Shown here piece after piece: positions 3,369 through 28,082 of a stretch of DNA of 64,000 bases (its first letter is position 1; every line of letters begins with the position of its first letter). Below the pieces are notes generated by a model, which was given only the letters and a program-made list of their open reading frames with translations, was not told where the DNA came from and searched no databases. Source of the DNA: Photobacterium swingsii (GTDB lineage Bacteria > Pseudomonadota > Gammaproteobacteria > Enterobacterales > Vibrionaceae); NCBI RefSeq assembly GCF_024346715.1, contig NZ_AP024853.1, positions 62,001 to 126,000 on the forward strand. Reading direction: 5' to 3'. The translations under genes were made by a program, and so were the position numbers.

Positions 3369-3476
3369 TTGTTGTGATTCTGTTAGTGAAGTCATAGTTT
3401 TTATCCCCTAAAGTGGTTTAGTTTTATGCTCACTATGACAGAATGAAGCCAGATTATCGCCAAGGAGGGGGACGTA

Positions 3477-4103
3477 ATGAGTGAGGATGCTCAGCAAGAT
3501 ATTTACCCATCAATGACGGTTGCCCGCGAGTGTGAGTCGACCAAAATTGAGCCTTTACAGTTGGGTAAGCGATTAAAAGAAATTCGAATGTCGCACGGTT
3601 TGACATTAGAAGAAGCCAGTAAAAGAACGGGATTAGCGCGTTCAACACTTTCTAAAATTGAAAACGAACAGATTTCACCAACTTTTCAAGCGATGCAAAA
3701 GTTGGCTGGTGGCTTAAATGTTGATATGCCTCAGCTTTTTGCACCTCCTCGCCAAACAAGAACAACGGGGCGACGTGATGTTACGCTGGCAGAACGAGGT
3801 AAACCACACCCAACGTCGACATACGAACATGAACTACTAGCAACCCAGTTAACCAATAAAAAAATGATGCCATTTAAGTCGCAAGTACGTGCTCGACATT
3901 TTAGTGATTACCCTGACTGGATTCGTCATGATGGGGAAGAGTTCTTGTTAGTATTAAATGGTGAAATTACATTTTTCTCTGAATTTTATGAGCCAGTCAA
4001 TTTAACCGAAGGTGATTCGGTTTATTACGATGCCAATATGGGGCATATGCTGATTTCAGTGAGTGAGAAGGATGCCAACATCTTATGGGTGACGGCCTCA
4101 TAA
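3477..4103 (+). CDS. XRE-family regulator with C-terminal cupin domain (gcv-linked)
   Basis: The 208-residue protein has an N-terminal Cro/C1-type helix-turn-helix at about residues 28-86 (LGKRLKEIRMSHGLTLEEAS, then GLARSTLSKIENEQISPTF). A cupin sensor domain spans about 120-205 (HDGEEFLLVLNGEITFFSE, then GDSVYYDANMGHMLISVS). A strong AAGGAGGGGG ribosome site precedes ATG 3477. It lies between divergent gcvH and codirectional gcvT, so it most likely controls glycine cleavage in response to a small ligand bound by the cupin. The ligand is unknown. A V. cholerae gcv locus has a comparable arrangement (from memory). Function as a gcv regulator is inferred from position and the shared operator sequence. 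Confidence 0.88.
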   Translation: MSEDAQQDIYPSMTVARECESTKIEPLQLGKRLKEIRMSHGLTLEEASKRTGLARSTLSKIENEQISPTFQAMQKLAGGLNVDMPQLFAPPRQTRTTGRRDVTLAERGKPHPTSTYEHELLATQLTNKKMMPFKSQVRARHFSDYPDWIRHDGEEFLLVLNGEITFFSEFYEPVNLTEGDSVYYDANMGHMLISVSEKDANILWVTAS

Positions 4104-4513
4104 TGACTAGCTCTTAGTATTAATCAGCGGATACTTTTAAGCATTTCAGAGCGCAATCAGGCTAGAAATATAGTGAATAAAAGCCAAGTGTTTCTTTAGG
4201 GTTCAATCTAGCGGCTAGCAAGACTGAAAGCTGTTTGTATATTTGAAAACATGATGGTTTGAGTGCTTTACTGAAGCCTTGCTTATGACAAGACTATCCA
4301 GATAATTGACTTTTCACCCATTAACAACTTTGTAATGCTAAATGTTAATGCTTTGATGTTTGCAGTTGTGTTTTATTAGCGTTGGTTTTTAATGTTTAGG
4401 TGTGAGGATTCGATCACAAAACTGTTTCTCAAAATTTGCGCTTTATATAAGACAAAGCCTCTTATATATGTTTTGGGTGTGATTTGCGGGGTAGAGCATC
4501 AACAAAAATTTAA
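4104..4513 (+). other. Non-coding stretch upstream of gcvT leader
   Basis: This 410-bp gap follows the XRE gene. I see no open reading frame with a ribosome site and no match to the glycine-riboswitch core. It must contain the gcvT promoter, but I could not pick one hexamer pair with confidence. Confidence 0.5.
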
Positions 4514-4631
4514 GAGGCTTTTGATTGAAGCCTCAGCGATACGTGACCTTGCGGCTATAACGTAAGGCAGTAAGTGTGATAAGTGGCGAAACCACTTCAC
4601 ATAATGAAATGGATAACATGGCCGCACGGCC
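4514..4631 (+). promoter_or_regulatory. Structured 5' leader of gcvT (four consecutive hairpins)
   Basis: Four short inverted repeats follow one another: GAGGCTT/AAGCCTC (4514-4534), CCTTGCG/CGTAAGG with one G-U pair (4547-4567), AAGTGG-cgaaa-CCACTT (4581-4597) and GGCC-gcac-GGCC (4620-4631). The last ends a few bases before the CGGAGAAAG ribosome site of gcvT. The layout suggests a regulatory leader. It does not match the glycine aptamer I know. Confidence 0.4.
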
Positions 4632-4646
4632 TACGGAGAAAGAAAA

Positions 4647-5765
4647 ATGTCTCAAGATCTTCTGGTTACACCGCTACACGCTCTTCATATTGAAATGGGC
4701 GCAAAAATGGTACCGTTTGCAGGCTATGATATGCCTGTACAGTACGCTCTTGGTGTACGTAAAGAGCATTTACATTGCCGTGAGCATGCGGGGTTATTTG
4801 ATGTATCGCATATGGGACAAGTTCGTCTTCATGGCGCTGGTGCTGCGAAAGCGATCGAAGCATTAGTACCTGTCGATATTATTGACCTACCTGAGGGTAA
4901 ACAGCGCTATGCTTTCTTTACTAATGAGCAAGGTGGCATCTTAGATGATTTGATGGTGACTAATTTTGGTGATCATTTGTTTGTTGTCGTTAATGCTGCA
5001 TGCAAAGAGCAAGATATCGCACACATTCAAGCGCATCTTCCTGCTGATGTTGAGTTGGAGATTATCGAAGATCGTGCATTACTTGCTTTGCAAGGGCCAA
5101 AAGCTGCCGATGTGTTGGTGCGTTTGAATCCAGCGGTCAGTGACATGGTATTCATGGATGCGACGAAGATCGAGCTATTGGGTGTTGAGTGTTACGTGAG
5201 TCGTTCAGGTTATACTGGCGAAGATGGTTATGAAATTTCAGTGCCAAACGATAAAGCGGAAGCACTGGCTCGTGAGTTACTTGCGTTTAGTGAAGTAGAG
5301 TGGATTGGCTTGGGGGCGCGTGATTCACTGCGCCTTGAGTGTGGTTTGTGCTTATATGGACACGATATCGACACAACAACCACACCTGTAGAAGCAAGCT
5401 TGTTATGGGGTATTAGCAAAGCGCGTCGTGCAGACGGTGAGCGTGCGGGCGGTTTCCCTGGTGCAAACTTGGTACTTGAGCAAATCAAAACCAAAGATGT
5501 TGCTCGTAAGCGCGTTGGTTTACTTGGTCAATCAAAAGCGCCTGTACGTGAAGGCAGTAAATTATTCGATGCAGCCGATAACGAAATTGGTATTGTCACA
5601 AGTGGTACATTTGGGCCTTCAAAGGGGTCACCTGTAGCAATGGCTTACGTGAAAACAGATTGTGCAGTGATTGGTACTGAAATATTTGCTGAAGTACGTG
5701 GTAAGAAACTGCCGATGACAGTTGAAAAAATGCCGTTTGTACCGCAGCGTTATTACCGCGGTTGA
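4647..5765 (+). CDS. gcvT: Aminomethyltransferase (T protein)
   Basis: GcvT moves the methylene carbon from aminomethyl-lipoyl-GcvH to tetrahydrofolate and releases ammonia. At 372 residues it has the usual length. Family motifs include the N-terminal LHIEMGAKMVPFAGYDMPVQ, YSRSGYTGEDGYE-like VSRSGYTGEDGYEISVP, and GLGARDSLRLECGLCLYGHD with the folate-site residues. The start at 4647 has CGGAGAAAG upstream. It is transcribed away from gcvH-gcvP, with its own leader and terminator, so the three proteins of the system come from two transcripts here. Confidence 0.97.
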   Translation: MSQDLLVTPLHALHIEMGAKMVPFAGYDMPVQYALGVRKEHLHCREHAGLFDVSHMGQVRLHGAGAAKAIEALVPVDIIDLPEGKQRYAFFTNEQGGILDDLMVTNFGDHLFVVVNAACKEQDIAHIQAHLPADVELEIIEDRALLALQGPKAADVLVRLNPAVSDMVFMDATKIELLGVECYVSRSGYTGEDGYEISVPNDKAEALARELLAFSEVEWIGLGARDSLRLECGLCLYGHDIDTTTTPVEASLLWGISKARRADGERAGGFPGANLVLEQIKTKDVARKRVGLLGQSKAPVREGSKLFDAADNEIGIVTSGTFGPSKGSPVAMAYVKTDCAVIGTEIFAEVRGKKLPMTVEKMPFVPQRYYRG

Positions 5766-19189: not shown

Positions 19190-20209
19190 TTATTTTAGAG
19201 TGATAGGAATACGCAATGATAATTGGAAGTCGGGCGCATCGGCTGTTAACCCTGCGGTTGCACCAATATTGATTGTGGTATCCCGACTAATAGCATAGTT
19301 AGCGCCAAAAGAGAGTGAATCTAATTGCAGTAACTTGGCATTGTCAGGTGTGACGCCGTTGATTTTAGATTTCAAAATGGTTTTATGGCTAAGTCCCATA
19401 CTAAATGAAAACTTAGGGTTAACCGCAAAGCCCATTCCTGCACTAAATGAAATCGTATCGCCTAAATCGATTGTTTGACTGCCTGCTTCTGTATCTACGT
19501 CATCTTCTATGTTCCAGATATAACTGGTGCTTGCATAGATAACAGCGGGATCAATCGGCAATATCATCGTGATTCCTGGCTCAATACTGGCGAAGCCCGA
19601 GCCTGTAGGCAAAGTTTCAAACTCATTGGTTTTAGGATCGATATTGACATCGTATGGTGATTTACCTGTTGTGCTTTTAAAACGTAAACTACCAATCCAA
19701 TAAGGTGCTGTTTTCATATTGAATTGGTATTTAAATGCCGCTTCAATATCACCTAAACCGCTGCCATCAAGATCAATGAGTTCATTATTATTTGCTCCTG
19801 TCTGTGCTTTTCGTTTAGAAATGGAATCCGTTCGGTAAACCAGTGGAATACGGGTTTCGACTTCAAATCGGTTAGTAATGCCGTAGCGACCAGTGAAACC
19901 AACGGTCAAAGTTGTTCTATCTACGTCACTGGCTTCAATTAGCCCAACAATTAATGACGGTAGAACAGTGTAGCCTACAACTGAAACCGAGTTTGAAGAG
20001 TTCTGTGTATACGAGAATGAAGTGTCTAAGACAAAAGAACCTCGCGGTGTGAGTACACCTGGTTGCTCAAAAATATCTGCAACGGTTTGAACTCTTTTTG
20101 GCTTTTCCTTTTTATCGTCGGTTTGATCTGCAGAGGGTTCCTCGGCAAAAACAGCGCTAGAACAGAGTGTTAGTAGCGCTACTAAGCTTTTATATTTGAA
20201 TGTATTCAA
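19190..20209 (-). CDS. FapF-like outer-membrane beta-barrel channel
   Basis: The 339-residue protein has a signal peptide (MNTFKYKSLVALLTLCSSAVFA) and a short charged linker. The body resembles the barrel of FapF and the related phenol-MetA-type transporter family: GVLTPRGSFVLDTSFSYTQN, LIVGLIEASDVDRTTLTVGF, RYGITNRFEVETRIPLVYR and SGLGDIEAAFKYQF. In Pseudomonas, FapF exports amyloid subunits through the outer membrane. The long N-terminal coiled coil described for FapF is missing; only about 20 charged residues stand there. It is divergent from the subunit-like genes and shares their palindrome-rich promoter region. Assignment as FapF-like is from motif recognition, not a search. Confidence 0.78.
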   Translation of the reverse strand: MNTFKYKSLVALLTLCSSAVFAEEPSADQTDDKKEKPKRVQTVADIFEQPGVLTPRGSFVLDTSFSYTQNSSNSVSVVGYTVLPSLIVGLIEASDVDRTTLTVGFTGRYGITNRFEVETRIPLVYRTDSISKRKAQTGANNNELIDLDGSGLGDIEAAFKYQFNMKTAPYWIGSLRFKSTTGKSPYDVNIDPKTNEFETLPTGSGFASIEPGITMILPIDPAVIYASTSYIWNIEDDVDTEAGSQTIDLGDTISFSAGMGFAVNPKFSFSMGLSHKTILKSKINGVTPDNAKLLQLDSLSFGANYAISRDTTINIGATAGLTADAPDFQLSLRIPITLK

Positions 20210-20255
20210 AACTTCCTCACTTTAACGCAAATTAATCCCAAAAAAGGTCGGAGAG

Positions 20256-20353
20256 TTAGACGTCTTTGACCATAAAAAAAGAGTAGTAGAGTGAGACATA
20301 ACGTCTAATGAGACGTCTCATTTAATGTCTTAATCCTGAGATGCTTATAAGAC
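20256..20353. promoter_or_regulatory. Cluster of AGAC/GTCT half-sites with a 16-bp palindrome
   Basis: A perfect palindrome AATGAGACGTCTCATT lies at 20307-20322, and a second core AGACGTCT at 20258-20265. Further AGAC or GTCT half-sites begin at 20294, 20303, 20327 and 20350. Eight half-sites fall in 96 bp, where fewer than one is expected by chance. The array sits between the divergent FapF-like and subunit-like genes. A near copy, GAGACGTTTC, lies before the VpsR-type gene at 24126, so that regulator is the likely ligand. Confidence 0.65.
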
Positions 20354-20581
20354 CCTCTCAGAATTGATAATTTGCTTCGCTATTAATATTAATTAGCCAA
20401 ACTGGAACTTGAATAAATTTATTTAAATAAAGTAAAACTTAACCGCCTGTTTATTTAAAGGAAAATAAACTTATTAAAATTAATACAGTTCAAAAGTTGG
20501 TGGTGACTAGATTTAATGTATCTCGCAGAAATATTGCGAGTTACTAGAAAAATAACAAGACAACATATTTGGAGTAATACC

Positions 20582-21355
20582 ATGCGTAAAACAAATCTCG
20601 CACTATTAGTAGCAGTACTTGTTAGTTCGCCGTTAGCTCTAGCGGATGGTCACCAAGGTGGATATGACGACAGTGGTAGTGATGGCGGTTACCAAGGCGG
20701 CGGTAGTGACTATGATGACGGTTATGGTGGTGGCCCAGTAGCGGCTGGTGATGTAACCAATAAAAACGATGTGGGTAATGAAATTTATACCATAGATAAC
20801 AGTGGTAATTACGATAAAACAGTAACCTACACATCTTCACATGATAAAGACCTTTCTGTTAAAGACTCGTTTAACTATGACGCAAATTATGATGCAAAAC
20901 ATACTGTTGATCATTCTTACACAGTAAAAGACAGCTATAACCAAGACAACGATGCATTACTAATGCATAACATCGACAACGATCGTAGTCATCGTTATAC
21001 CGATAACAGCGATAACAGTAAGCACTGGGAAGATAATAGTACCCATGATTACAGCCAAGATTGGAATATCGATATGGATACCAATCACTTTGTTTCTAAA
21101 GCTGAACTTGATGGCTCTGTCGCACAAAGTTCTGTGAAATACGGTGGTGGCTGTTGTGATAGCGGTTACGGTGAACGCGGTGGTCGTTACGGCAGTGGTG
21201 GTAGCGGTGGTGGTATGAGCGAAGTCATGGTGACACAATCAAATGAAATGAATAACTCATTTGCTGGTGCATCTGGTATTAATATGGCAGGTCAAAATGC
21301 GGGTAATAACTCGTTGGTACAACAAAGTGCTAGTACAAATGCCATTTTATACTAG
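20582..21355 (+). CDS. Fap-like secreted subunit A (Gly/Asn/Asp-rich, CC motif)
   Basis: The 257-residue protein starts at ATG 20582 with TTGGAGTAATACC before it, and has a clean signal peptide (MRKTNLALLVAVLVSSPLALA). The mature part is low in hydrophobics and rich in Asp, Asn, Gly, Ser and Tyr: a Gly/Tyr/Asp-rich N-terminal stretch, then repeats of NYDxxYDxKxTVDxSYTVKDSY type. A YGGGCC double cysteine (about residue 195) precedes a Gly/Arg-rich linker. The tail is NNSFAGASGINMAGQNAGNN then SLVQQSASTNA. This is a candidate fibre subunit, a FapB/FapC counterpart. It is paralogous to the gene at 21964, including upstream sequence. Amyloid behaviour is inferred. Confidence 0.75.
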   Translation: MRKTNLALLVAVLVSSPLALADGHQGGYDDSGSDGGYQGGGSDYDDGYGGGPVAAGDVTNKNDVGNEIYTIDNSGNYDKTVTYTSSHDKDLSVKDSFNYDANYDAKHTVDHSYTVKDSYNQDNDALLMHNIDNDRSHRYTDNSDNSKHWEDNSTHDYSQDWNIDMDTNHFVSKAELDGSVAQSSVKYGGGCCDSGYGERGGRYGSGGSGGGMSEVMVTQSNEMNNSFAGASGINMAGQNAGNNSLVQQSASTNAILY

Positions 21356-21387
21356 TTAATATTTAACTTCGGCCGGTAACAAACAAG

Positions 21388-21421
21388 CTGAGAGTTGCTG
21401 GTAAATATAAGTAACTCTCAG
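21388..21421 (+). promoter_or_regulatory. Hairpin abutting the ribosome site of subunit B
   Basis: CTGAGAGTT (21388-21396) pairs perfectly with AACTCTCAG (21413-21421). The second arm overlaps the first bases of the AGGAGG ribosome site of the next gene. It could modulate translation or mark an mRNA processing point. Confidence 0.5.
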
Positions 21422-21430
21422 GAGGATGTT

Positions 21431-21763
21431 ATGAAATATTTAACGCTGATTGCTGCTGTTTTATTATCTAGTGGGGCAGTTGCAGATGAGTTGGATATTC
21501 TAACAAGCTCTGACATGATTTCTGATGATTTAATGGGTCAATCTCGGGGAACGAATTACGAGATTCAAATTGACAACATGCAGGCTCATTCAGAGATGGA
21601 CGGCGATGTTGCAGGTAATAGTGCTTACCATAATACGACAGGCGACAATATTATTGATTCTGGCTCATTTGCCGATTCGTCTGGGGTTTTTAGTGTAGTG
21701 CAAAATACGGGTAATAATGTATTGATTCAGAATGCAACCGTTGTAAACCTGACATTGAAGTAA
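21431..21763 (+). CDS. Fap-like small secreted protein B
   Basis: The 110-residue protein starts at ATG 21431 with a perfect AGGAGG ribosome site, after a hairpin. A signal peptide (MKYLTLIAAVLLSSGAVA) leads into an acidic, Asn/Asp/Ser-rich mature part. The tail FSVVQNTGNNVLIQNATVVN follows the same QNxGNNxLxQ pattern as the two larger neighbours. It may be a minor subunit, nucleator or chaperone-like partner (compare FapA or FapB). The exact correspondence cannot be set from sequence alone. Confidence 0.7.
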   Translation: MKYLTLIAAVLLSSGAVADELDILTSSDMISDDLMGQSRGTNYEIQIDNMQAHSEMDGDVAGNSAYHNTTGDNIIDSGSFADSSGVFSVVQNTGNNVLIQNATVVNLTLK

Positions 21764-21782
21764 CCTGTTAGTTTATCTATGT

Positions 21783-21804
21783 GCTGGCATGAGGCTGTGC
21801 CAGC
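21783..21804 (+). terminator. Weak hairpin after subunit B
   Basis: GCTGGCA-N8-TGCCAGC forms a 7-bp stem 20 bp after the stop but has no good T run (CCGTTTACT). It may be a transcript-stabilising or partial termination structure in the 200-bp gap before subunit C. Confidence 0.35.
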
Positions 21805-21963
21805 CCGTTTACTCAACATTTATTGAGTTGCGCCTTTCGCAGGGACTAACAACATTACTTCGGTCATTTATCAATGACTACAGATAATAAGCTGAAATAA
21901 CTCAGCGCTTAGATGTGATGTAAATAATAAAAACAATGCACACAACATATTTGGAGTAATATC

Positions 21964-22638
21964 ATGCGTAAAACTAATATCGCACTAGTAGTAGCAGTAG
22001 TAATGGCATCTCCATTTGCTTTGGCAGATGAAGAAAATACCCAAAATGCAAATAATGTTGATGTATTAGTTCAAGATTCTTTTAACAAAGATGCGACCTA
22101 TGATTTCGACAAATCTAAATCTGAATATGCAGATATTGATGGTTCAGGCAATGTTAATGTAGACAAATCCTACACAGCAGAATATAGCAAATCAAAAGAA
22201 ATTAATTACAGTGGTAATCAAGATAATGATCTGCTTTATATGTCAGACATTGGCAACGATGAAAGTGTAGTAAAAACTGACAATAGTGATAATTCTCATA
22301 TGTACTACGACAATAGTCAGTGGGATGCATCAAAAGCAGTAGATATTGATATTGATATCGACCACTACCTAGCTGAAAGTAAACTCGAGGGTGATGTGAT
22401 GGGGGCATCTGTCACTTACGGTGGTGCATGTTGTAGCGAACATGGTGATAAAGGTTACCGTGGTCGTGGAGGCAGCAGCGAAGGTAGCGACTCTGTCGTA
22501 AAAGTTGAGCAAATGAACTCAATGAATGACTCATTCGGTGGCGCATCAGGTATTAGCATCGCTGGTCAAAACGTTGGTAATAACTCATTAGTGCAACAAA
22601 CAACAAGTACCAATGCAGCGTTGGTTGGCTCACAATAA
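21964..22638 (+). CDS. Fap-like secreted subunit C (paralogue of subunit A)
   Basis: The 224-residue protein has a signal peptide (MRKTNIALVVAVVMASPFALA) nearly identical to that of subunit A. Shared blocks are NQDNDxLxMxxIxND, TDNSDNSxxxxDNS, DIDIDIDHYLAESKLEGDV, the YGGACC double cysteine and MNDSFGGASGISIAGQNVGN then NSLVQQTTSTNAAL. The N-terminal Gly-rich stretch of subunit A is absent. The upstream sequence CAACATATTTGGAGTAAT is also shared, so the pair arose by tandem duplication with its ribosome site. It is the best candidate, with subunit A, for a major fibre protein. Disulfide linking through the CC pair is inferred. Confidence 0.75.
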   Translation: MRKTNIALVVAVVMASPFALADEENTQNANNVDVLVQDSFNKDATYDFDKSKSEYADIDGSGNVNVDKSYTAEYSKSKEINYSGNQDNDLLYMSDIGNDESVVKTDNSDNSHMYYDNSQWDASKAVDIDIDIDHYLAESKLEGDVMGASVTYGGACCSEHGDKGYRGRGGSSEGSDSVVKVEQMNSMNDSFGGASGISIAGQNVGNNSLVQQTTSTNAALVGSQ

Positions 22639-22646
22639 GATTGAGA

Positions 22647-22674
22647 AAGGGCCTAGAAGTAGGCCCTTCTTTTC
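22647..22674 (+). terminator. Terminator between subunit C and the C39 peptidase
   Basis: AAGGGCCTA-gaag-TAGGCCCTT followed by CTTTTC, 9 bp after the subunit C stop. Partial read-through would give high subunit and low protease levels. Confidence 0.8.
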
Positions 22675-22725
22675 ATTACTTTAGCGGGCAAAATTGGTGT
22701 ACTGAAAGTCTTGGGTGTTGTTGTT

Positions 22726-23400
22726 ATGAATAAATCGATAGCGATATTATTAGGCATAACCAGCAGTTTTTCTGTTTTAGCGTTAGATTATTTTCCAAGT
22801 CGAGGAGGGTATAACGTTAAAGTGAAAAGCTACCAAGAGCAGTTATTTGGTGATGTACTTCGCCAACAATATGATTTTAGTTGTGGTTCAGCGGCTGTTG
22901 CTTCATTAATGACGTTTCATTATGACATTGAAATTAATGAAAGCGAAGTGTTTGATTTTATGTTTAAACATGGGGATAAAGAAAAAATAGAGAAACAAGG
23001 CTTTTCCTTGCTCGATATGAAAAAATATATTAATTCAATAGGCTTAGAAGCAAACGGCTATAAACTACCTCTAGAGAAAATAAAGAAACTCGGCATACCA
23101 GCAATCACCATAATAAACTTTGATGGGTATATGCATTTTGTGGTAATAAAAGGCATAAATACTAAGCAAGTTATTTTAGGTGACCCATCACGCGGAACTA
23201 TTGTTATGGATATTAAAGAGTTTGAAGAATACTACAAAGGGTTAGTTTTACTTGTGAAAAGCCATATTGATGTCGCAAGAAATGGTTTTATAAAAAAAGA
23301 AAATTATAGTGTTTATGCGGCATCGCCAACGGCAGAGGCGGTATCGCGCGATTCGCTTGCAACCTTCAGCATTACCTTGCCAGGAGCAAACGATTATTAG
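22726..23400 (+). CDS. FapD-like exported C39-family peptidase
   Basis: The 224-residue protein starts at ATG 22726 (a TTG 15 bp upstream is weaker) with a Sec signal peptide (MNKSIAILLGITSSFSVLAL). It carries a complete papain-like C39 core. The glutamine and cysteine lie in QQYDFSCGSAAVASL, the histidine in GYMHFVVIKG and the aspartate in LGDPSRGT. No ABC transporter domains are attached, unlike bacteriocin exporters, so it acts in the periplasm. In the Pseudomonas Fap operon, FapD is exactly this kind of protein. The next gene encodes a protein with a double-glycine motif, a possible substrate. Confidence 0.85.
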   Translation: MNKSIAILLGITSSFSVLALDYFPSRGGYNVKVKSYQEQLFGDVLRQQYDFSCGSAAVASLMTFHYDIEINESEVFDFMFKHGDKEKIEKQGFSLLDMKKYINSIGLEANGYKLPLEKIKKLGIPAITIINFDGYMHFVVIKGINTKQVILGDPSRGTIVMDIKEFEEYYKGLVLLVKSHIDVARNGFIKKENYSVYAASPTAEAVSRDSLATFSITLPGANDY

Positions 23401-23408
23401 AGGCTAGT

Positions 23409-23933
23409 ATGAAAAAGTTATCCCGATTATCCATAATATCTGCGATTGGTGGTGTGGCTTTTGTTGCCCATGCCTCTATCGGATTTTTATCTTTAGATGA
23501 GAAAAAGCATAACCTTGTCACCATGAGTGAGCAAGAAATGGCAACGGTCAGAGGTGGTTTTATATCTATCAATAACACCTTGATAAATATAGGACTAACT
23601 ATCTCGACGGCATTAAATGGCAGTAAAGTTTATACCTCTCAAATAGCGAACCTTACTATAGATAACGGGGTATTAACGACAGTCGGCGTTGATGAGGTAG
23701 CAGACCCTATAAAAGTGGTTCAGAATGATAACCCAGGAACAGGCGAGAACACAGTAAGCCCTTCGTTAAGTTTACAGGACGGCAGTATTGCCAATATTAT
23801 TCAAAATACGGTAGATGGTGCGAATATTAGCATTCAAACAGAGCTGAATATAGAAGCGGATGTCGAGGGGTTTCTACGTGAGCAAGGTAATATAAACCGC
23901 TTAGAAAATGCTATTTTAAGTCATAGTTACTAG
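23409..23933 (+). CDS. FapE-like exported protein with double-glycine leader
   Basis: The 174-residue protein starts 8 bp after the peptidase stop. It has an N-terminal hydrophobic signal (MKKLSRLSIISAIGGVAFVA). Residues about 37-51 then read VTMSEQEMATVRGG, a close fit to the double-glycine leader pattern LSxxELxxIxGG that C39 peptidases cut. The mature part would begin FISINNTLINIGLTIS. It contains QDGSIANIIQNTVDGANISI and several Asn/Thr-rich beta-prone stretches. By order and character it resembles FapE of the Pseudomonas fap operon. The leader processing is an inference. Confidence 0.7.
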   Translation: MKKLSRLSIISAIGGVAFVAHASIGFLSLDEKKHNLVTMSEQEMATVRGGFISINNTLINIGLTISTALNGSKVYTSQIANLTIDNGVLTTVGVDEVADPIKVVQNDNPGTGENTVSPSLSLQDGSIANIIQNTVDGANISIQTELNIEADVEGFLREQGNINRLENAILSHSY

Positions 23934-23954
23934 AGACCCTCTTTAAGTTAATAT

Positions 23955-23987
23955 AAAGGTATAGTACTCGCTACTATACCTTTTTTG
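23955..23987 (+). terminator. Terminator of the Fap-like operon
   Basis: AAAGGTATAGTA-ctcgc-TACTATACCTTT with a TTTTTT tail, 22 bp after the FapE-like stop. Confidence 0.92.
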
Positions 23988-24125
23988 TTGTGTTTTTTTG
24001 TCATTTGATGTTAGTTGTAATTAGTTTTTGAACTTTATTGTACTAATGAAAATATTACTAAGTTCTTGAAAAAGAAATGAACTTATCTTAAATGAATTTA
24101 GGTATATGCTATTTTTGAACTCTTT

Positions 24126-24135
24126 GAGACGTTTC
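24126..24135. promoter_or_regulatory. GAGACGTTTC site before the VpsR-type gene
   Basis: It matches the GAGACGTCTC core at 20310-20319 in 9 of 10 positions and lies about 90 bp before the regulator start codon, suggesting autoregulation. Confidence 0.5.
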
Positions 24136-24224
24136 TTATATCTGATACCCTGCAAACTTATCATTTCTCACCTATATTCTTAATACATTATAAAAAATGC
24201 ACATTGATATAGAAGGTGACTTCG

Positions 24225-25577
24225 ATGGTGGCTCAATGTCAAAATAAATCTTTTAATGGTCGCTTAGTTGCAATTGGATGTAACTATGAACCTTGGATTG
24301 CGCTTTTAGAACAATCAGGCTGGAAAACACACTGTTGTTACGACCTCCGCACGGCTGACTCAATCTTGGATGAATACAGCCCATGTATTTGTATTGTTGA
24401 TTTAAGCAATAATGATTTTAGCTTGAATAGCATTGCTTTGAGGGCAAATAAAACCAAACATGTAAAATGGATTGCTGTTATTAAAAAAGAGCAGCTACAA
24501 ACAGATGCGATATGCCAATTTATTAATAACTTCTGCGTCGATTACTTTTCAGTGCCGATTCCGAGTAACCATTTACTCGAGACTGTAGGGCATCAGCTGG
24601 GGATGTTAGAAATAGAAGCCAGCTCTTGGGTGGAAATTACATCGCAGCATGATATGGGATTATTTGGCGAATCTAAATCAATAAAGCAGCTACGAGACAT
24701 GGTACGTAGAGTGGCCTCTACGGATGTAAATGTATTTTTAACAGGCGAAAATGGTACAGGTAAGGAGTTGATTGCTAAATCAATTCACAATTTATCTAAA
24801 CGCAAGAATGCCGCTTTTGTTACTGTTAATTGTGGTTCTTTATCGAAAGATGATGAGAAAGTAGCATTTCTAAGAACATCAACAGCAGACCTAAAAGAAG
24901 ATGGTGAACTTCGTGCAACAGGCACTATCTTGCTTGATAACGTTGAAGAACTATCGAAAGAGCTTCAAGACGAGCTGTTGAATTACTTACAAGCACCCGC
25001 GAATGATACTTTAGAGGATGACTCTCATTGTGATATTCGCATTGTTGCTTCTTCAAGCTCAGATCTTGAAAATGCTGTTTTGAATGGTGAGTTTAGTAAG
25101 GAATTGTTTTACCGCCTTAATGTGTTCCATATAAAAGTACCAACCTTGCGCGAGCGTGGTTCGGATATTTTTATGCTGGCGGAAAAATTCCTAGCCAAGT
25201 TTGCGACGGAATACAGCACCATGGCATCGACATTCTCTGAAGATTCGAAGCAGCTATTGTTACGTTATAGCTGGCCGGGTAATGTTCGTGAATTGATCAA
25301 TCAAGTTAAACGGGCAGCATTATTGGCAGAAGGCAATGAAGTAAGGGCGGAGCACTTTGATTTACCTAGTAAAGCGAACTTAAAGCAGAGCTTGCGTAAT
25401 ATTAAAGATGAGGCTGAAAAAGATGTTTTGGTGGCTGTGCTAGAAACGCATCGTGGGCAAGTTGCATCAGCAGCGAAAGACCTAGGTGTATCACGTGCGA
25501 CTATGTATCGCTTGCTCAACAAACACAATATCGTACCAGATGTAAGGCACTACAATAGCAGTTTTATGCGTGAGTAA
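24225..25577 (+). CDS. VpsR-type regulator (degenerate AAA+, Fis HTH)
   Basis: The 450-residue protein starts at ATG 24225 with AAGGTG before it (a GTG 9 bp upstream lacks room for a ribosome site). The N-terminal REC-like domain has D59 in CICIVDLSNNDF, aligned with D59 of VpsR. NFCVDYFSVPIP and HQLGMLEIE also follow VpsR. The AAA+ domain has Walker A GENGTGKE, a degenerate Walker B (ILLDNVEEL) and RLNVFHIKVPTLRER. The GAFTGA sigma-54 loop is absent. A Fis-type HTH ends it (GQVASAAKDLGVSRATMYRL). VpsR binds c-di-GMP and activates biofilm-matrix genes without sigma-54. Here it sits beside a Fap-like cluster and probably controls it. Confidence 0.85.
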   Translation: MVAQCQNKSFNGRLVAIGCNYEPWIALLEQSGWKTHCCYDLRTADSILDEYSPCICIVDLSNNDFSLNSIALRANKTKHVKWIAVIKKEQLQTDAICQFINNFCVDYFSVPIPSNHLLETVGHQLGMLEIEASSWVEITSQHDMGLFGESKSIKQLRDMVRRVASTDVNVFLTGENGTGKELIAKSIHNLSKRKNAAFVTVNCGSLSKDDEKVAFLRTSTADLKEDGELRATGTILLDNVEELSKELQDELLNYLQAPANDTLEDDSHCDIRIVASSSSDLENAVLNGEFSKELFYRLNVFHIKVPTLRERGSDIFMLAEKFLAKFATEYSTMASTFSEDSKQLLLRYSWPGNVRELINQVKRAALLAEGNEVRAEHFDLPSKANLKQSLRNIKDEAEKDVLVAVLETHRGQVASAAKDLGVSRATMYRLLNKHNIVPDVRHYNSSFMRE

Positions 25578-25642: not shown

Positions 25643-26716
25643 TTATTTATTACGGCGAAGCCAGCCGAATAGACCCAGCACAAGTAAACCAGAAAGTGGC
25701 ATAGTACCACCACCACCATTGGAGCCTGATGTTGGTTGCTTAGGTTTTACGGTTTTCCAATGCGGATTGAAAGGGTCATATTTGTAGCTTGCTTTTGGCA
25801 GTGAAGATAATGACAAGCCCGTTTTTCCTTCTATCCATGTACGGTAGTATGGAACCTGAGTGTATAAGCCGTTGTTATCGACTATCCCTTTGTTTTTTAA
25901 ACTACATAATGCCCCATTACTTGTCGCACCGATAAGGCGAAGACCTTTATCTGTATCAGCACTATTTGCTGGATTTTGCCAAACAAGCGGGCCACCTGAA
26001 TCGCCACGACAAACATCTTTTTTTACATTGGCTTTATTAGAGTCAGCACATACGAAGAAGTTACCTGTTTGGCTGTAGGTATTACACTGATTGTCAGGAA
26101 TACCTGCTAGTTCAACAACTTGTAGCTCGTCAGCAATTTTATTTTGTGTACCTAAATGGCCCCAGCCAGAAGCAATTAGCGTTGCCTTAGAGTCTTGATT
26201 TTTCACATAGTATTGTTCAAAAGATTTATCAGCGTCACTTTGCTCTTTGGCTGTCGCGATTGAAATCGCTTTGCCACCCTGAGCAAACAAAGAGTTTTTT
26301 ACACGAACAACAGCGATATCATCATTAAAGTTAGTTGAGCTGTCATTCTCATCGTATTTGAAGTTGCTATGATAAATGACTTCTTCAACGCTTATTGCAT
26401 TTGATATATCGAGAATGCCATTACTGATCGGGGATTTAGTTTGGCCAACAAAAACATAGTCGCCTTTGTTGAGTACCGCAGTTGAGGTGCCACTATCATT
26501 TTTTACCGCGCAATGAGCCGCCGTTACAATCCAATGATCAGAGATAATTGAGCCACCACACAGAGAGCCTTGGCTGCTAACGAGCATAACTTGCCATGGT
26601 AGTAGATCTTGGATGGCAGTATCACCATTCATTACTTTTGCTTGTGGTGTTGAGGCGTAAGACTGTGCTGCGCTAAGTATGCAGAGCGCAGTCATAAGGA
26701 ACTTCATCTTTTTCAT
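25643..26716 (-). CDS. Secreted trypsin-like protease with GlyGly-CTERM anchor
   Basis: The 357-residue protein begins at ATG 26716 with a signal peptide (MKKMKFLMTALCILSAAQSYA). The chymotrypsin-fold domain has the triad in VTAAHC, NDDIAVVRV and CRGDSGGPL. The activation-like site is AKVMNGDTAIQDLLPWQVML. The C-terminus has a Gly-rich linker (GSNGGGGTMPL), a hydrophobic helix (SGLLVLGLFGWL) and RRNK, which is a GlyGly-CTERM sorting signal processed by rhombosortase, as in VesB-type proteases of Vibrio. Export is expected by the type II pathway. It is a tandem paralogue of the next gene. No rhombosortase gene is in the window. Confidence 0.9.
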   Translation of the reverse strand: MKKMKFLMTALCILSAAQSYASTPQAKVMNGDTAIQDLLPWQVMLVSSQGSLCGGSIISDHWIVTAAHCAVKNDSGTSTAVLNKGDYVFVGQTKSPISNGILDISNAISVEEVIYHSNFKYDENDSSTNFNDDIAVVRVKNSLFAQGGKAISIATAKEQSDADKSFEQYYVKNQDSKATLIASGWGHLGTQNKIADELQVVELAGIPDNQCNTYSQTGNFFVCADSNKANVKKDVCRGDSGGPLVWQNPANSADTDKGLRLIGATSNGALCSLKNKGIVDNNGLYTQVPYYRTWIEGKTGLSLSSLPKASYKYDPFNPHWKTVKPKQPTSGSNGGGGTMPLSGLLVLGLFGWLRRNK

Positions 26717-26879
26717 GATATCGGCTTCTTGTATGTGAACGGTGTTTTTTATTCTGAGTGGATAATATACAGCTGAAATTAAAAAGCGAATAAATGCTAA
26801 CAAAATGTGATCTAGATCTTGTTTTGGTTTGATTGTGCCGAACTGTGTTGCTGTTTATATTTCTGCTTAAGCTTATAAA

Positions 26880-26917
26880 AAGTAGAACACCCAAATAGTA
26901 TTACTGTTTGGGCGTTC
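26880..26917 (-). terminator. Terminator of the second trypsin gene
   Basis: GAACACCCAAA pairs with TTTGGGCGTTC except for one mismatch. The minus-strand tail is TACTTTTTATA. Confidence 0.6.
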
Positions 26918-26954
26918 GTACTTAGTGTTAAACGACTTGTGTAATATGGGCGTA

Positions 26955-28082
26955 TTATTTGCTACGACGCAACCAAGCAAATATACCTAGCGTAAGCAAA
27001 CCAAATAGCGGAACGCTACCACCGCCGCTAGAGTTTGTATCTGGCTTCTTCGGCTCTTTGGGTGGGGTATTTTTTACCACTTTGAAAGGGTCATATTTAT
27101 AGCTAGGCATAGGAATCGAATCTAAATTTAGACCTGTTTTCGTTTCTATCCAATCTCGGTAGTAGGATACTTGCGTATATAAGCCATCACCATCTGTTAG
27201 CCCGTCTTTTTTAGCGCTGCACAGCGGACCATTACTGGTAGCACCTACTAGACGTAACCCTTTGTCGGCATCATTCACATTTGCAGGATTCTGCCAAATT
27301 AAAGGGCCGCCTGAATCACCGCGGCATACATCTTTTTTCACCGCGGCACGGTTAGAGTCAGCACAGACAAAGTAATTGCCTTTGAACTGAGGGCTATCAC
27401 ATTGGCTATCTGGAATACCAGCAAGTTTTATAACTTGAAGAGTCTCTGATGTTTTGTTTTGTGTACCTAAGTGTCCCCAACCTGATGCAATCAAGGTTGC
27501 TTGAGAGTCTTGACCGCTCACATAGGTGTTCGCAAATTGCTGGTCAGCCTGTGTTTGCTCAGCGCTTGCTAGATCTGGTTTTTTATATGTTGCAATTCGA
27601 ATGGCTTTACCACCACGATCATATAAAGACGCGTTTACACGGATGAGGGCAATATCGTTATCAAACCGTGTCGCCTGAATCTCAGGATTGTAATCTTTAT
27701 GGGTGATGACTTCTTCTATTACTGTGCCTTTATTAAGGTCTAGGTAGCCACCAAAAAGGTGAGGGTTAGTAGTGCCTGCAAAAATATAGTCACCTTTTTC
27801 AAGCATGACTTTACGGCTACCAAGTTCCACTTTAAACGTACAGTGCGCAGCGGTTACGATCCAATGTTCAGATATGATTGAACCACCACACATAGTGCCG
27901 TAATTCTGCCCATACACCATGACTTGCCACGGTAGTAAATCTTGAATAGCTGCTTCGCCATTCATAACACGTGGTAGTACTGAGGGGGAGTCTGCTGCAA
28001 TCGAGTCTGTTGTTGATGCGGCTAAGGTCGCGCTGGAACCTAACAAGCATAACGTTGCAATAATGGTTTTTGTCTTTTTCAT
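26955..28082 (-). CDS. Secreted trypsin-like protease with GlyGly-CTERM anchor, paralogue
   Basis: The 375-residue protein closely parallels the downstream copy: signal peptide (MKKTKTIIATLCLLGSSATLA), VMNGEAAIQDLLPWQVMVYG, the triad in VTAAHCTF, NDIALIRV and GDSGGPLIW, and an ASGWGHLGTQNK block identical to the other. A propeptide of about 17 residues (DSIAADSPSVLPR) precedes the activation site. The tail is SSGGGSVPLFGLLTLGIFAW then LRRSK, again GlyGly-CTERM. Each copy has its own promoter region and terminator, so they are tandem duplicates rather than one operon. Confidence 0.9.
   Translation of the reverse strand: MKKTKTIIATLCLLGSSATLAASTTDSIAADSPSVLPRVMNGEAAIQDLLPWQVMVYGQNYGTMCGGSIISEHWIVTAAHCTFKVELGSRKVMLEKGDYIFAGTTNPHLFGGYLDLNKGTVIEEVITHKDYNPEIQATRFDNDIALIRVNASLYDRGGKAIRIATYKKPDLASAEQTQADQQFANTYVSGQDSQATLIASGWGHLGTQNKTSETLQVIKLAGIPDSQCDSPQFKGNYFVCADSNRAAVKKDVCRGDSGGPLIWQNPANVNDADKGLRLVGATSNGPLCSAKKDGLTDGDGLYTQVSYYRDWIETKTGLNLDSIPMPSYKYDPFKVVKNTPPKEPKKPDTNSSGGGSVPLFGLLTLGIFAWLRRSK

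Follow-up and report, generated by a model that had tools for sequence, protein, structure and literature searches.

A second-branch Fap-family cluster in Photobacterium swingsii with FapE as the predicted substrate of an exported C39 peptidase

In Pseudomonas, the periplasmic peptidase FapD with its active-site cysteine is required for secretion of the amyloid subunit FapC (PMC5557850). The target or role of FapD was called unclear in papers from 2017, 2018 and 2020 (PMC5557850, PMC6173800, PMC7764130), and the question is still left open in PMC9268375. A gene cluster of Photobacterium swingsii, located at positions 19,190 to 25,577 of a 64,000-nucleotide stretch (contig NZ_AP024853.1, here called the window), raises the same question: does this cluster belong to the Fap family, and which protein is cut by its C39 peptidase? 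We consider it quite probable that the cluster is a second-branch (branch II) Fap-family fibre-export system in which FapD cuts FapE. All support for this reading comes from sequence comparison, and both the amyloid fibres and the cleavage of FapE are predictions.

The cluster and its relation to the Fap system

The host genome, a Photobacterium, comprises 5.65 Mb in two contigs, and the nearest named relative of the window peptidase is that of P. jeanii (91%). An initial annotation of the window had described a Fap-like amyloid cluster with a divergent export gene, and all the genes that it listed were found at the places it gave. A barrel gene on the minus strand is followed on the plus strand by S1, S2, S3, the C39 peptidase, the FapE-like gene and the VpsR-type regulator:

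19190..20209, minus strand: FapF-type outer-membrane barrel without coiled coil
20582..21355, plus strand: S1, exported Asn/Asp-rich subunit with a CC motif and a C-terminal module like the FapB repeat (24-protein S1/S3 alignment; module compared with the FapB C-terminal repeat)
21431..21763, plus strand: S2, small exported FapB-like protein of 110 amino acids, with a leader-like motif ending in RGT (module compared with the FapB terminal repeat)
21964..22638, plus strand: S3, paralogue of S1 (S1/S3 alignment)
22726..23400, plus strand: FapD-type exported C39 peptidase
22882-22884, 23134-23136 and 23182-23184, plus strand: FapD catalytic residues Cys53, His137 and Asp153
23409..23933, plus strand: FapE-like protein, predicted FapD substrate
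23409..23474, plus strand: Sec-like signal peptide of FapE, residues 1-22, ending in AHA (from the sequence, boundary set by eye)
23475..23558, plus strand: predicted FapE propeptide (residues 23-50) with the double-glycine leader MSEQEMATVRGG at its end and a predicted cut before Phe51 (from the sequence)
24216..25577, plus strand: VpsR-type regulator without GAFTGA

Profile searches place the barrel with FapF and the C39 protein with FapD. The best NCBIfam match of the barrel is FapF (NF058560, E 2.4e-48), followed by FilC (6.6e-17), and its sequence also finds the solved FapF structures (PDB 5o67, E 1.2e-38). Residues 24-335 align to positions 88-417 of the 420-position FapF model; the first 87 model positions are unmatched, and the roughly 40 residues between signal and barrel match leave no room for the periplasmic coiled coil of FapF, which bears out the earlier description of the barrel. 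The gene order is changed as described, with the barrel gene opposite to the rest and not in line as canonical fapF is. For the peptidase, a stand-alone exported protein without transporter domains, the best NCBIfam match is FapD (NF058616, E 9.2e-40), followed by FilB (1.4e-34), and it matches Pfam C39 at 1.9e-23. By sequence it finds, in the PDB, the C39 domains of peptidase-containing ATP-binding cassette (ABC) transporters (6mpz, E 2.7e-12).

In a quick tree of 93 C39 domains (149 columns, support from the Shimodaira-Hasegawa-like approximate likelihood ratio test, SH-aLRT, only), 16 canonical rows stand together (branch I, SH-aLRT 92), and 63 rows including the window form branch II (99). 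The window locus thus falls in a broad branch II, apart from the canonical Fap branch I. Cys53, His137 and Asp153 are invariant in all 79 rows, 16 of branch I and 63 of branch II.

FapD-class matches of at least 124 bits were obtained in 20 of 35 congeners. The 20 fetched Photobacterium loci all contain S2, an S1/S3-type gene, the C39 gene, FapE, the barrel and a DUF2750 gene, and the gene order is conserved among them; the Fap link thus survives the synteny check proposed for it. A pattern printed all three subunit genes in 19 of 21 named Photobacterium loci and fewer in L083 and L096. Together, the profile matches of barrel and peptidase, the profile-profile comparisons of FapE and subunits described below, and the synteny show that this is a genuine, conserved cluster with homology to the Fap amyloid system, as had been suggested.

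In the mechanism that we propose, Sec would export all components, and periplasmic FapD would bind the leader helix of pro-FapE and cut after R-G-G, with mature FapE beginning at Phe51. This cut would license passage through the FapF-type barrel for FapE, the FapC-like S1 and S3 and the FapB-like S2. On the cell surface S1 and S3 would then polymerise, and the VpsR-type protein would control the operon without sigma-54.

The double-glycine leader of FapE

The FapE-like identity of the window protein was upheld by profile-profile comparison. An hhalign comparison of the branch II (51 sequences) and branch I (14 sequences) FapE profiles gave a probability of 95.8 and E 7.6e-9, covering the signal, the leader and about 16 residues beyond. 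What the initial annotation had missed is the most informative feature of the protein, its double-glycine leader. In window FapE the signal peptide is followed by SIGFLSLDEKKHNLVTMSEQEMATVRGG and then by FISINN. The leader fits the C39 consensus L(-12)xxxE(-8)L(-7)xxxxG(-2)G(-1), of which the hydrophobic residues at -4, -7 and -12 are seated in the peptidase groove (PMC6959990, PMC6363468); the window protein has Met at -12 and -7.

We examined 104 loci, some of them from the same genomes, of which 93 belong to branches I and II. The open reading frame (ORF) after fapD has the leader in 92 of these 93, in L104 as RAGF. In the 93rd, L147, the leader stands at residue 276 of a 403-amino-acid ORF after fapD (3472-4683, minus strand), perhaps a fusion with an N-terminal extension. 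No FapE was seen in the other 11 of the 104 loci (L154-L164). The leader takes the form R-G-G/F in branch II and R-G-[RK]/[YF] in branch I (the slash marks the predicted cut); the Aeromonas caviae site reads LADGELAHLRGRY. The predicted cut lies after residue 35 to 78 overall and 44 to 78 in branch I, with start codons guessed.

For position-wise counts, 95 loci were considered, FapE was found in 88 and 72 distinct sequences were kept. This pick had missed L117, L138, L140, L147, L150, L155 and L156, of which L155 and L156 are not Fap and L147 is the long-ORF case; four were added by hand to give 76 rows. A strongly hydrophobic residue is present at -4 in 74 of the 76 and at -15 in 63, compared with 4 at -5; none of these three positions was used in picking the rows, for which -12, -7, -3, -2, -1 and +1 were used. 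The residue at -1 is Gly in all 61 branch II rows and Arg or Lys in all 15 branch I rows. An alignment of 51 branch II FapE, whose columns average 24% identity, shows no variation at R48 or G50 and at least 90% conservation at G49 and F51, in rows chosen with a pattern demanding these four residues.

The pattern RG[GRK][FY] occurs in none of 1136 other ORFs of the window and the loci (475 count as exported under a crude rule) and in 66 of 72 FapE, which shows its rarity and not its discovery, because the FapE rows had been picked with a related pattern. Of the 475 exported ORFs, 7 match a looser pattern (one in L154 twice), and five of these 7 are either a FapF or lie next to C39 genes with low scores. 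The published C39 consensus, searched anywhere in an ORF, is found in one of 62 window ORFs, which is FapE, and in 39 of 1496 ORFs of the loci: 34 FapE, one S2-like protein and four others. Matches to the double-glycine leader families in the 51 branch II FapE are weak (TIGR04149 in 11, best E 0.033; PF10439 in 3, best 0.12), stand among many unrelated weak ones and singly prove nothing. With the curated FapE model, all 14 branch I rows and 13 of the 51 branch II rows (best E 6.6e-4) give a match. From the leader and its position we infer that FapD would cut FapE at this site in both branches, in the periplasm.

FapE of both branches would be the clearest case of a two-step maturation, in which a bacteriocin-type double-glycine propeptide stands behind a Sec signal peptide and comes off in the periplasm before export. 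Whether stand-alone exported C39 peptidases represent such a pathway in Gram-negative bacteria generally is, in our judgement, evenly balanced. Related leaders of the LSDxxLDxxTAG, LSRQEMKDTQGA and MSSAEIESVQGK types are present in exported proteins near other stand-alone C39 genes (L154, L159, L164, L169). The exported proteins of L159, L164 and L154 have LSDxxLDxxTAG or xxAE[IM]xxVQGK-type leaders, and on an Acinetobacter plasmid (L169, 2525-6621) three exported proteins near the stand-alone C39 gene share a LELSRQEMKDTQGA motif. A plasmid search gave no FapE match.

Subunits, alternative readings and points against

The three Asn/Asp/Gly-rich exported proteins and their CC motif were seen correctly from the start. 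S1 and S3 are paralogous (46% identity), and 24 aligned S1/S3 proteins keep the CC pair almost without exception (at least 90%). S1/S3 and S2 have a C-terminal module in common (hhalign E 1.2e-15), which resembles the FapB terminal repeat, here a profile built from 12 sequences: the S1/S3 module matches it with E 1.1e-5 and a score of 27.6 (maximum 14.4 in 40 column shuffles), the S2 module with E 1.5e-4 and 22.7 (17.1 from shuffles). Pooled canonical Fap repeats match S1/S3 and S2 weakly (E 0.0096 and 0.024). Family scans gave nothing for S1 and S2 and, for S3, a single weak match (E 0.07) that looks unrelated.

It is possible, though rather unlikely, that Fap-derived machinery here exports a non-amyloid adhesin or matrix protein and that S1 and S3 form no cross-beta fibres. 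Such a protein would fit with S1-S3 each being seen with only one C-terminal module and lacking matches to the FapB and FapC models, and with AlphaFold giving S3 no fold; it fits less well with the relationship of the module to the FapB terminal repeat and with the retention of FapE and of FapD with its site.

A further alternative, which we regard as improbable, concerns the target: FapD might cut FapF or another component, and the FapE leader might be an uncut binding or targeting signal. Cleavage of FapF was discussed by Rouse et al. (PMC5557850), and some C39 domains are inactive (PMC6173800). One canonical FapF, that of L125 (2564-3865, minus strand), contains VPDSELERLAGR, which resembles the leader and could be a second FapD site. 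Neither pattern scan revealed such a motif in the window barrel, the FapD catalytic residues are invariant in the 79 rows, and in Pseudomonas mass spectrometry showed complete N-terminal processing for FapE alone among the Fap proteins, with no peptides in the first ~70 residues (PMC5557850). These observations argue for FapE as the substrate.

S2 has a leader-like motif as well, which ends in RGG in 12 of 15 Photobacterium rows printed (window included), in RGT in the window and P. jeanii and in RAG in one; the 21 Vibrio/Thaumasiovibrio rows have RGG (15), RGK (5) and RGQ (1). In the rows inspected the motif lacks the hydrophobic residue at -4, and S2 is therefore a weaker candidate than FapE, possibly a second FapD substrate in related species. 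In one congener locus (L052/L023) fapD reads in two frames, with the neighbour genes found, by decay or sequencing error. Decay of the cluster to a mere remnant in this strain, as the RGT ending of S2 in the window and P. jeanii and this two-frame C39 gene might suggest, is very improbable given that all its genes are open in the window and the gene set is kept in 20 of 20 fetched congeners.

Several points weigh against a Fap-type system with cleavage of FapE. The window proteins score far below the curated cut-offs: the barrel reaches 165 bits against an equivalog cut-off of 700 for FapF, and FapD reaches 136 against 330. In a class sample of 369 genomes no match exceeded the curated FapD or FapF cut-off either, and all 17 listed places are below the 700 bits of FapF. 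The curated FapE model gives no match to window FapE at E 1 or better, and the FapB and FapC models give none to S1-S3, with the FapC of L127 as a control passing its cut-off. A Sec-like N-terminus was assigned by the crude rule to 64 of 72 FapE and not to all, and the FapE rows set beside the 1136-ORF control were a pattern-picked set. The branch I leader evidence comes from canonical loci of bacteria other than Pseudomonas, with Aeromonas caviae (L166), listed as a fap carrier by Dueholm in 2013 (PMC3792158), as the nearest named stand-in. Arg or Lys at -1, as in branch I FapE, is unusual for C39, and the matching change proposed at FapD position 131 is not strict. AlphaFold models of S3 (mean confidence score pLDDT 36) and FapE (51) are too poor to use and give no support either way.

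FapD position 131 is mostly Asp in branch I and Asn in branch II, but we do not claim that it covaries with the FapE -1 residue, because there are exceptions in both branches (L126, L138 and L166 in branch I and five in branch II).

Distribution, regulation and related systems

A scan of the genome collection found 43 loci, which belong to Photobacterium, Vibrio and Thaumasiovibrio. FapD is matched at E 1e-20 or better in 79 of 329 Vibrionaceae genomes; the score is 114.8-144.2 bits in 76 and 251-264 bits in 4, with matches of both kinds in G575. Branch II FapE (alignment A3) was found in 77 of the 329, namely the same 76 as branch II FapD and one with a 58-amino-acid fragment. The canonical Vibrionaceae loci (L173, L175-L177) encode FapB, a FapC of 1276-1431 amino acids, FapD, FapE, a FapF whose N-terminus is long and rich in Gln, and a VpsR-type protein. 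In G575 a canonical fap operon and a separate branch II locus coexist in one genome. Branch II takes in Photobacterium, Vibrio, other families, Cupriavidus metallidurans and the alphaproteobacterium Croceicoccus.

The machinery resembles that of Pseudomonas (fapABCDEF) in the FapF-type barrel, the exported C39 FapD, FapE, the subunits with a FapB-type terminal module and the FapE leader at the same place, as read in canonical loci of other bacteria. Unlike the Pseudomonas system, the window has a divergent fapF without coiled coil and two Asn/Asp-rich FapC-like paralogues in which the FapB and FapC models recognise no canonical repeats, and its FapE site is RGG/F in place of the canonical RG[RK]/[YF]. 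No FapA-family match was found among nine window proteins scanned, and no curli family (CsgA/CsgG) was among the matches shown for these nine; a weak match to the curlin repeat (E 0.0091) occurs in one of the 51 FapE relatives. The canonical operons of the four Vibrionaceae genomes share the machinery and the VpsR-type gene with the window but belong to another clade and have the long FapC with canonical repeats. The Acinetobacter Fil system resembles the window cluster through FilB and FilC, the second-best matches of peptidase and barrel, and these matches are weaker than those to the Fap models. The C39 domains of LahT, PCAT1 and ComA share sequence family, catalytic residues and leader consensus with the window peptidase, which in contrast is exported, has no transporter domains and is predicted to act after Sec export.

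The suggestion that this is an undescribed branch is likely to be right, though not certain. A 2013 paper described Fap in Vibrio with 16 repeats in FapC (PMC3792158), which probably fits the canonical Vibrionaceae operons better than branch II; a strict pattern found 7 repeats only in one canonical Vibrionaceae FapC. According to a 2018 review, homologues of fapD and fapF lie together in five further phyla (PMC6173800). A 2025 GTDB survey demanded the FapBC repeat and three further genes (PMC12392863) and would probably have missed branch II. Our search, largely of open-access literature, found no paper on a fap operon in Photobacterium, and its functional-amyloid results were unrelated by title.

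The window regulator carries the VpsR domain (PF20161, E 5.8e-48, 162 bits, cut-off 23.7). A whole-protein VpsR-type profile, which also catches ordinary sigma-54 activators, matched in 20 of 20 Photobacterium loci, 18 of 20 branch I loci (L125-L139, L166, L173, L175-L177), 7 of 14 other branch II loci (L140-L153) and none of 22 Vibrio/Thaumasiovibrio loci, some of which are short. With a profile of the N-terminal domain only, few loci matched outside Photobacterium; the Pfam VpsR domain was above cut-off in all five other regulators tested (three of branch I, two of branch II). The regulator named in the initial annotation is thus of VpsR type and constant in Photobacterium, but not peculiar to this locus, since sigma-54-activator/VpsR-type genes also lie near 18 of 20 canonical loci. 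In a Vibrio locus (L102) the neighbouring regulator has a VpsT-like receiver domain, with CsgD as best match, and LuxR-type genes stand at a like place in loci L109 and L174.

VpsR of V. cholerae acts in a sigma-54-independent mode. GAFTGA is present in none of the 21 Photobacterium regulator rows, whereas six of seven other Fap-linked regulators carry it, with GSFTGA in the remaining one; the window regulator is therefore likely to work independently of sigma-54 in the manner of V. cholerae VpsR, and VpsR may descend from a sigma-54 activator of a fibre cluster. The likeness to V. cholerae VpsR and VpsT lies in the domains, PF20161 in the window and the receiver domain in L102; unlike VpsR and VpsT, these two regulators adjoin a fibre cluster.

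As a candidate operator we considered a GAGACGTCTC palindrome upstream of S1 with a half-site upstream of the regulator gene and rejected it, being unconserved across 21 loci. Palindromes like GAGACGTCTC lie in both promoter regions of the window (20280-20330 and 24125-24135) and are unconserved in relatives; other 8-mers shared across the 21 loci gave no convincing operator site. Downstream of the regulator lie two adjacent exported trypsin-like proteases (25643-28082, minus strand), the first with a near-threshold GlyGly-CTERM match (14 of 15.5 bits); relatives of them adjoin the cluster in the P. jeanii-like locus L041, but the 13-kb stretches covered for the other 19 Photobacterium loci contain none.

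The cluster adds a branch to the Fap family and sets VpsR- and VpsT-type regulators beside fibre clusters. A FapE leader conserved at an exact position in both branches makes the question of the FapD target testable by one cleavage assay, and it suggests that a bacteriocin-type processing code has been reused behind the Sec pathway.

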